A DNA stretch of 64,000 nt, taken from Halorubrum sp. DM2 (GTDB taxonomy: Archaea; Halobacteriota; Halobacteria; Halobacteriales; Haloferacaceae). This document shows, piece after piece, positions 4,060 through 29,091 of the stretch. The stretch is taken from assembly GCF_901686465.1 (NCBI RefSeq), contig NZ_LR594487.1:592894-656893 (forward strand), read 5' to 3'. Under the pieces are notes generated by a model. It made no database searches, was not told where the DNA came from, and saw only the letters and a program-made list of their open reading frames with translations. The stretch's first letter is position 1. Each line of letters opens with the position of its first letter. Made by a program: the position numbers and the translations under genes.

Positions 4060-4315
4060 GCGGCGGCGCGCGCCTCCGAGCGCCCTTTTAAGGGCGCGAG
4101 GAGCGTCGCGCGAGGGAGTCGGCGGCGACCAACGGGAGCCGCCGACGAGGCTGGGGAGGCGTGAGGTGCTGGGCGGTGCGGGACGGGGCGGGACTCGAAG
4201 GGGCAGCCGCGAGGACGAAGACGCGCGACGCAAGGACCGCAAGGAGTGAGCGGAGCGAACGACTGAGGACCGCAGCGAGCGCATCGAGTCCTCGCGGCTG
4301 GGGCTTCGGCGGTCT
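4060..4315 (+). repeat. Structured dispersed repeat, copy 1
   Basis: About 255 bp filling most of the 476-bp gap between the convergent asd and fused beta-oxidation genes. Three stems can be folded. P1 has arms CTCCGAG (4074-4080) and CGAGGAG (4097-4103) around the perfect hairpin 4081-4096. P2 has arms GTCGGCGGC (4119-4127) and GCCGCCGAC (4138-4146). P3 pairs AGCCGCGAGGAC (about 4205-4216) with GTCCTCGCGGCT (about 4288-4299). Conserved linkers are GCGCGAGGGAGT before P2 and GAGGCTGGGGAGGCGTGAGG after it. Copies 2 and 3 share the layout with compensatory arm changes. No open frame in it looks coding. Structured RNA or non-autonomous mobile element; I do not recognise a named family. Confidence 0.75.
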
Positions 4316-4460
4316 CGGTCACGAAATCGACCCCGCCGAAAACAGTCACGTACAGCCGAGCGACCGAGACTTCGACGGTAGTCGCCCCCGACTCTGTCCC
4401 GATCGCGTCTCACCGGTCACCCGGTGAAACGGAGCCGTTCACATCAGATTCAGCCGCGTT

Positions 4461-12117: not shown

Positions 12118-12366
12118 GACCACCGAAGCCCCAGCCGGGAGGATGGCGCACGCTCGCTGCGCTCCTCAGTCGCTCGTTTCACTCGCTCCTTGCGGTGCTT
12201 ACGTCGCCTGCGCCATCCTCCCGGCTGCCCCTTCGATTCCCACCCCGCACAGCACTTCACGCCTCCCCAGCCTCGTCGCCGGTCCTCCGCTTCGCTTCGG
12301 ACCGCCGACTCCCTCGCGCGTGCTGCTCGGCCGCGAGGCGGCCTCGCAGGCACGCGCCACCGCATC
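12118..12366 (-). repeat. Structured dispersed repeat, copy 2
   Basis: Reverse-oriented copy in the gap before the pirin gene. Read on the minus strand: P1 contains CGAG at 12343-12346, hairpin arms GCCGC/GCGGC (12338-12342 and 12330-12334) and CGAG at 12326-12329. P2 has arms GTCGGCGGTCC and GGACCGGCGAC (about 12310 down to 12276), with one mismatch. P3 pairs AGCCGGGAGGATGGCGCA with TGCGCCATCCTCCCGGCT (about 12227-12210 with 12150-12133). The P3 arms differ from copies 1 and 3 (AGCCGCGAGGAC) yet stay complementary, which is the best evidence that structure is conserved. The element ends at GGCTTCGGTGGT, as copy 3 does. Confidence 0.75.
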
Positions 12367-28706: not shown

Positions 28707-28835
28707 GCTTTCGTCTACGCCCCGGAGGAACTTGAATCGGCGCGGACACGGGTGTTACCGGGAACGAAGACGGACCGTATCGCGTCGTTCCGTCCGACCG
28801 GCTATGATCGAAACCGATGATACTCATAAAACAGG

Positions 28836-29091
28836 CGGTGGCGCGTGCCTGCGAGCGGTCGCCGGTGGCGACCGCGAGGCAGCACCGCGCGAGGGAGTCA
28901 GTCGCCGGAGCGAAGCGACGGCGACTGACGAGGCTGGGGAGGCGTGAGGTGCGGTTGCGGGGCGGGAATCGAAGGGGCAGCCGCGAGGACGACGCACGAC
29001 GACGCAAGCACCGCAACGAGGGAGCGATAGCGACCGAGTGAGGAGCGCAGCGAGTCGCGCGAGTCCTCGCGGCTGGGGCTTCGGTGGTGTT
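28836..29091 (+). repeat. Structured dispersed repeat, copy 3
   Basis: Fills most of the 466-bp gap after the dioxygenase promoter. P1: CGAG (28852-28855), perfect hairpin CGGTCGCC/GGCGACCG (28856-28874) and CGAG (28875-28878), closed by GTGC/GCAC. P2: GTCAGTCGCCG and CGGCGACTGAC (about 28898-28928), different from copies 1 and 2 but fully paired. P3: AGCCGCGAGGAC with GTCCTCGCGGCT (about 28979-28990 and 29063-29074), enclosed by CGAAG/CTTCG. Linkers GCGCGAGGGAGTC and GAGGCTGGGGAGGCGTGAGG are identical or nearly so to the other copies. A frame of 74 codons runs through it but its product is arginine-rich and unlike haloarchaeal proteins. Confidence 0.75.

Follow-up and report, generated by a model that had tools for sequence, protein, structure and literature searches.

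Structured RNAs tied to dispersed, multi-copy elements are known from the guide RNAs associated with HEARO/IscB and with TnpB. Among short interspersed repeats, the closest described systems are, on the one hand, bcr1 and its BCR relatives in the Bacillus cereus group and, on the other hand, the Haloquadratum walsbyi repeats called PATEs and SMRs (PMC3119063). Repeats of the bcr1 type are short, non-coding and mainly chromosomal, reach up to 130 copies per genome without having a transposase of their own, and display mobile features linked to repetitions of a TTTAT motif (PMC6542083). The element studied here, of which the window (i.e., the whole stretch of 64,000 nucleotides of a Halorubrum chromosome under analysis) contains three copies, resembles bcr1 in its copy number, size, chromosomal location, non-coding nature, absence of an own transposase and, possibly, the TTTAT motifs present in part of the copies, but differs from it by its haloarchaeal host, its three-helix body, its tandem tail units and its sites shared between species. 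Because the two lineages are far apart, we do not file it as a member of bcr1, to which it is likened by description and not by sequence. With PATEs and SMRs, it has in common a haloarchaeal host, non-coding palindromes, the lack of a transposase gene and perhaps that of a target duplication, none being visible at the sites read, whereas PATEs are distinguished by near-terminal IS605-type palindromes and by some homogeneous, recent groups (PMC3119063), and the element by having neither a link to TnpA nor recent copies. Finally, unlike the HEARO, IscB and TnpB guide RNAs, its body carries no internal ORF, has no coding capacity and finds no match in Rfam, while its tail is semi-conserved instead of being a copy-specific guide.

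The element is composed of a body of ~250 nt and a short tail. From 5′ to 3′, it consists of GCGGTGGCGCG, P1, GCGCGAGGGA, P2, GAGGCTGGGGAGGCGTGAGG, a linker of GCNGT-like steps, GGGACTCRAAGGGGC, P3, GGGGCTTYGG and the tail, with AAGCACCGCA and GAGGAGCGCAG retained in the distal part of P3. In copy 1 (+ strand), the body (P1, P2, core, P3 and GGGGCTTCGG) spans positions 4060..4309 of the window, with the P1 hairpin region, based on the fold and the chimera test, at 4065..4111, the P2 hairpin at 4118..4146, the conserved core GAGGCTGGGGAGGCGTGAGG at 4147..4166 and the long P3 hairpin at 4205..4299, the latter being flanked by the two strands of its closing helix, CGAAG (5′) and CTTCG (3′). A tail unit of 66 nt (GCGGCTGGGGCTTCGG...TACAGCCGA) lies at 4294..4359 (+) and precedes a degenerate second unit. 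The body of copy 2 (− strand) occupies 12123..12363, its P1 region 12316..12358, its P2 hairpin, with one mismatch, 12275..12309, its core 12255..12274 and its P3 hairpin 12133..12226. In copy 3 (+ strand), the same parts are found at 28835..29084 (body), 28840..28890 (P1), 28897..28929 (P2), 28930..28949 (core) and 28979..29074 (P3), directly downstream of a degenerate TATA-like motif, CTCATAAAACAG, at 28823..28834 (+). The placement of the copies in the original prediction is thereby borne out (4060-4315 on the + strand, ~12118-12363 on the − strand and 28835-29091 on the + strand), and its wording for the P2 arms, the P3 arms and the linkers matches all three of them. The anatomy nonetheless reaches past its coordinates, through the CGAAG/CTTCG helix closing P3, the 3′ tail and TTTATAA-like motifs upstream.

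The 3′ tail comprises 1–5 imperfect tandem units, whose spacing of 48–72 nt is divisible by 3 in 150 of 157 cases; TTATAA is present in 63 of the 157 units. The possibility that the tail is a coding array was considered and rejected, as adjacent units vary equally across codon phases (34/37/33) and stops occur often. Ahead of the body's GGCGCG, TTTATAA-like motifs are located at ~20 and ~50 nt, in some copies only: an upstream TATA-like motif was detected in 79 of 195 copies (~40%) vs. none of 195 in a control window. With the usual archaeal spacing, the motif nearest the body would put a start inside P1, a point that weighs against the RNA explanation. The hairpin loops are often GNA or GNNA with C–G closure, a form that is stable in DNA. 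In some copies, an extra domain of ~70–170 nt is inserted in the linker or in P3. An optional domain of the form GGTCCCGC..GCGGGAGCACGGAAGTCGCAGCC..GCAGGAACGTCTTCC, with its own CGGAAG/CTTCCG pairing, was observed in the linker of L070, L100, L157, L256, L295, L308 and L324, and in P3 of L045 and L301. Split copies were also inspected for an autonomous version bearing an ORF between the two halves, but none was seen, the inserts being 26–166 nt long.

The original prediction counted three copies, which proved wrong at the genome scale: our covariance model recovers 137 places (E ≤ 1e-5) in the Halorubrum chromosome to which the window belongs (3.45 Mb). This model (R2) replaced an earlier one (R1), which relied on an RNAalifold fold devoid of P2. 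When the 20-base core was searched with up to 3 mismatches, 138 matches were obtained in the same genome, against 2 for a reversed control pattern. A regional strand bias of the copies was dropped as a candidate feature, the full set of 137 positions being distributed 70/67 between strands. Rfam 15 yielded neither a family match at the gathering threshold nor a credible weak match over the element, which agrees with the initial statement that no named family was known for it, and its description was not found in the open-access literature, whether by words or by sequence. The element is probably a real, folded and so far unnamed RNA family, in which the sequence drifts while the shape is kept in nearly every copy.

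The haloarchaeal search suggested at the outset revealed a widespread family. All 34 other genomes of the same genus in our first draw contain the element, as does each genome of that genus that the wider model searches listed; named matches include many Halorubrum species and Halobellus. Diverged forms exist in many other genera and are patchily distributed over other families of the order, to which all 30 genomes with a match in a phylum-wide draw of 393 belong. In distant genera, the stem sequences are unrelated and the unpaired motifs are conserved. Some relatives in genus g17 (family f17) and genus g40 (L173, L174, L175, L185, L187 and L195) possess the first half only (P1, P2 and core), without P3, and in g40 this half is followed by many GCGGTGCTGTC-like steps. 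Phage records gave no match to the element and viral contigs no match to one exact core pattern, while plasmids, with few matches, are nearly devoid of it.

The three stems P1, P2 and P3 are real. For each of the three window copies, none of 200 dinucleotide shuffles folds as well as the copy itself (z = −4.7, −5.8 and −6.0). When the pairing was examined across 197 distinct copies by building two-copy chimeras, the own halves paired better than the chimeric ones in 183 of 187 copies for P1, 145 of 150 for P2 and 190 of 197 for P3 (p ≤ 5e-26), and three control stretches (linker and flank) showed no effect. Likewise, arm shuffling over 105 copies indicated pairing within copies and not across shuffled ones (z of 15.6 to 18.4). 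Counting pairs in P2 over 59 aligned copies, both-sided changes affect 9 of the 12 pairs, a count reached by 0 of 500 shuffles and by no slid register, and simple one-pair compensations are found in the stems. The statistical covariation anticipated from three copies is therefore strong by three separate approaches (chimera test, arm shuffling and pair counting), and the conservation of pairing persists as more copies are examined. Moreover, the element strand shows more G–U than A–C mismatches (70 vs. 18, mostly in P3, with related copies counted as independent), which argues for RNA of that strand rather than DNA, even if the argument is weak for P1 and P2 alone, where the excess is small (17 vs. 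8). At one P3 pair, the G–U type is seen 24 times and the A–C type never. For one wobble site in P3, the constraint on one side may stem from the GGCTGGGG motif and not from the pairing.

One pair in the helix closing P3 distinguishes the Halorubrum lineage under study from its relatives. It is G–C in 52 of 52 own copies vs. A–U in ~70% of 145 copies from other genomes, and its two partners are the most differentiated columns between these two sets. The difference holds at shared sites too, and other columns differ less, so that the switch is more than what a mere homogenisation of entire copies would produce. From these alignments, we favour the view that the change points to a trans-acting partner, although biased gene conversion could also have produced a coordinated switch of this kind.

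Among the 52 own-genome copies compared, the best identity is 89.6%, without any pair above 90%. Five sites are occupied in the same orientation across species (up to 11 species with the shared region) and empty in others, and two or three changes per site are needed on the gene tree, which implies gain or loss over species time. Orthologous copies are as identical to each other as paralogs (74.4% in both cases), while the gene ends flanking the former are mostly 86–96% identical; either the copies have drifted to the limit of their constraints or exchange has erased their site history. Between our genome and G016, synteny is broken beyond ~60 kb. Occupied and empty orthologous sites differ by ~440–700 nt, and the comparison of sites C and E, at which the species are diverged and the ends not sharp, disclosed no TIR or target duplication. 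As for candidate enzymes, PF01797 (Y1 transposase TnpA) has no match in the carriers G016, G028, G019, G149 and G158, and has one in 15 of 19 non-carriers. Hence, TnpA does not track the element in present-day genomes, and a dependence on Y1 transposases is not what we observe, though one may have existed in the past. In our own genome, an intact-looking Y1 transposase match lies ~1.2 kb ahead of the window start (G000:C1:591399-591743, − strand). The chromosome is free of copies from 1.02 to 1.37 Mb, a gap of 356 kb in which most of the sampled DNA has a GC content of 51–61%. Within it, the region at ~1.05–1.33 Mb (L371-L377) is low in GC (0.51–0.61 vs. 0.68 in the window) and is probably an acquired island or an integrated plasmid. 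Given the shared sites, the lack of near-identical copies, the absence from this gap and from phages and the rarity in plasmids, these facts describe an old resident and not an active transposon. Where the original prediction had hesitated between a structured RNA and a mobile element whose fold matters, the RNA is favoured by the G–U excess, and current mobility is not supported.

According to the explanation that we prefer, and to which we assign about an even chance from sequence comparison, the element would be an old, chromosomal and haloarchaea-specific family of interspersed structured-RNA repeats bound by one shared trans-acting factor. Three helices of free sequence (P1, P2 and P3) would hold fixed single-stranded motifs (GCGCGAGGGA; GAGGCTGGGGAGGCGTGAGG; GGGACTCRAAGGGGC; AAGCACCGCA/GAGGAGCGCAG; GGGGCTTYGG), the selected form being the folded RNA presumably transcribed from the element strand and recognised by this putative factor. 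A change in the preference of the factor in our lineage would have carried one P3 base pair along in all copies. The copies would have spread long ago, like bcr1-like repeats in Bacillus, and would now be mainly inherited vertically, with occasional gains or losses, sitting for the most part close to the 3′ ends of genes and seldom in divergent gaps. The RNA would most likely serve a shared protein as a scaffold. More tentatively, and with clear doubts on our part, haloarchaea might possess a new class of RNA, with more than a hundred gene copies per chromosome that are each maintained individually and co-evolve with a single dedicated RNA-binding partner, such that a lineage can switch one base pair everywhere at once.

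Some features would suit a non-autonomous mobile element of MITE or PATE type, carried in the form of folded single-stranded DNA by a transposase acting in trans, with stems that matter as DNA: the copies are dispersed, orthologous sites with and without the element differ in length, TTTATAA motifs hold fixed positions and C–G-closed GNA/GNNA loops are frequent. Such an origin is nevertheless unlikely, considering the lack of near-identical copies, the sites and orientations common to several species, the absence of TnpA from several carriers and its presence in most of the tested non-carriers, the fact that no target duplication is visible at the sites read and the strand specificity of the G–U excess. 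Copying by a reverse transcriptase, as in a SINE-like retroelement, would agree with an RNA-like fold ending in tandem 3′ tail units, but RVT_1 was found in no carrier (0 of 16) and in one of 19 other genomes, which largely refutes a current activity and makes this route extremely improbable. In the absence of selection for the fold, palindromes could be kept perfect by template switching during replication, and entire stems do differ between same-site copies with their pairing intact; we deem this very improbable in view of the unpaired motifs fixed across genera, the strand-specific wobble excess and the simple one-pair compensations.

The genomic setting bears on a further alternative, i.e., a DNA or RNA element that acts in cis at the 3′ ends of genes, as a terminator, a 3′ UTR stabiliser or an insulator, and is under local selection at each site. 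Among 48 own-genome loci, 42 do not overlap any predicted gene, 20 lie between convergent genes and only 4 between divergent ones, and a gene converges on the 3′ side of the element in 35; together with a fold kept in nearly all copies tested, this would fit a cis-acting element. Yet, the upstream gene is on the strand of the element in just 29 of the 48 loci, tandem gaps hold 9 sense vs. 15 antisense placements, some species have lost sites and the share expected in random intergenic DNA is similar to the observed gene-end placement, all of which renders local cis action quite unlikely. Returning to a trans-acting partner, the lineage-wide base-pair switch would offer a direct handle for finding candidate proteins, in a host group for which genetic tools exist. 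The element represents a sizeable unannotated share of haloarchaeal intergenic DNA with a strongly supported selected fold and, if transcribed, would in our judgement rank as a structured RNA family with a copy number that is unusually high for archaea.

The genes next to the three copies of the window, which are ordinary metabolic ones or unknown (semialdehyde dehydrogenase, 3-hydroxyacyl-CoA dehydrogenase/enoyl-CoA hydratase, pirin, glyoxalase and DUF7260), share no theme. After asd, as read by eye, a small ORF replaces the element in L094 (G017), L095 (G065) and L102 (G023), and in L095 tandem CTGCTCGTCGAGGAGGGGTACGTCTAA copies directly follow asd, corresponding to a duplicated gene 3′ end.
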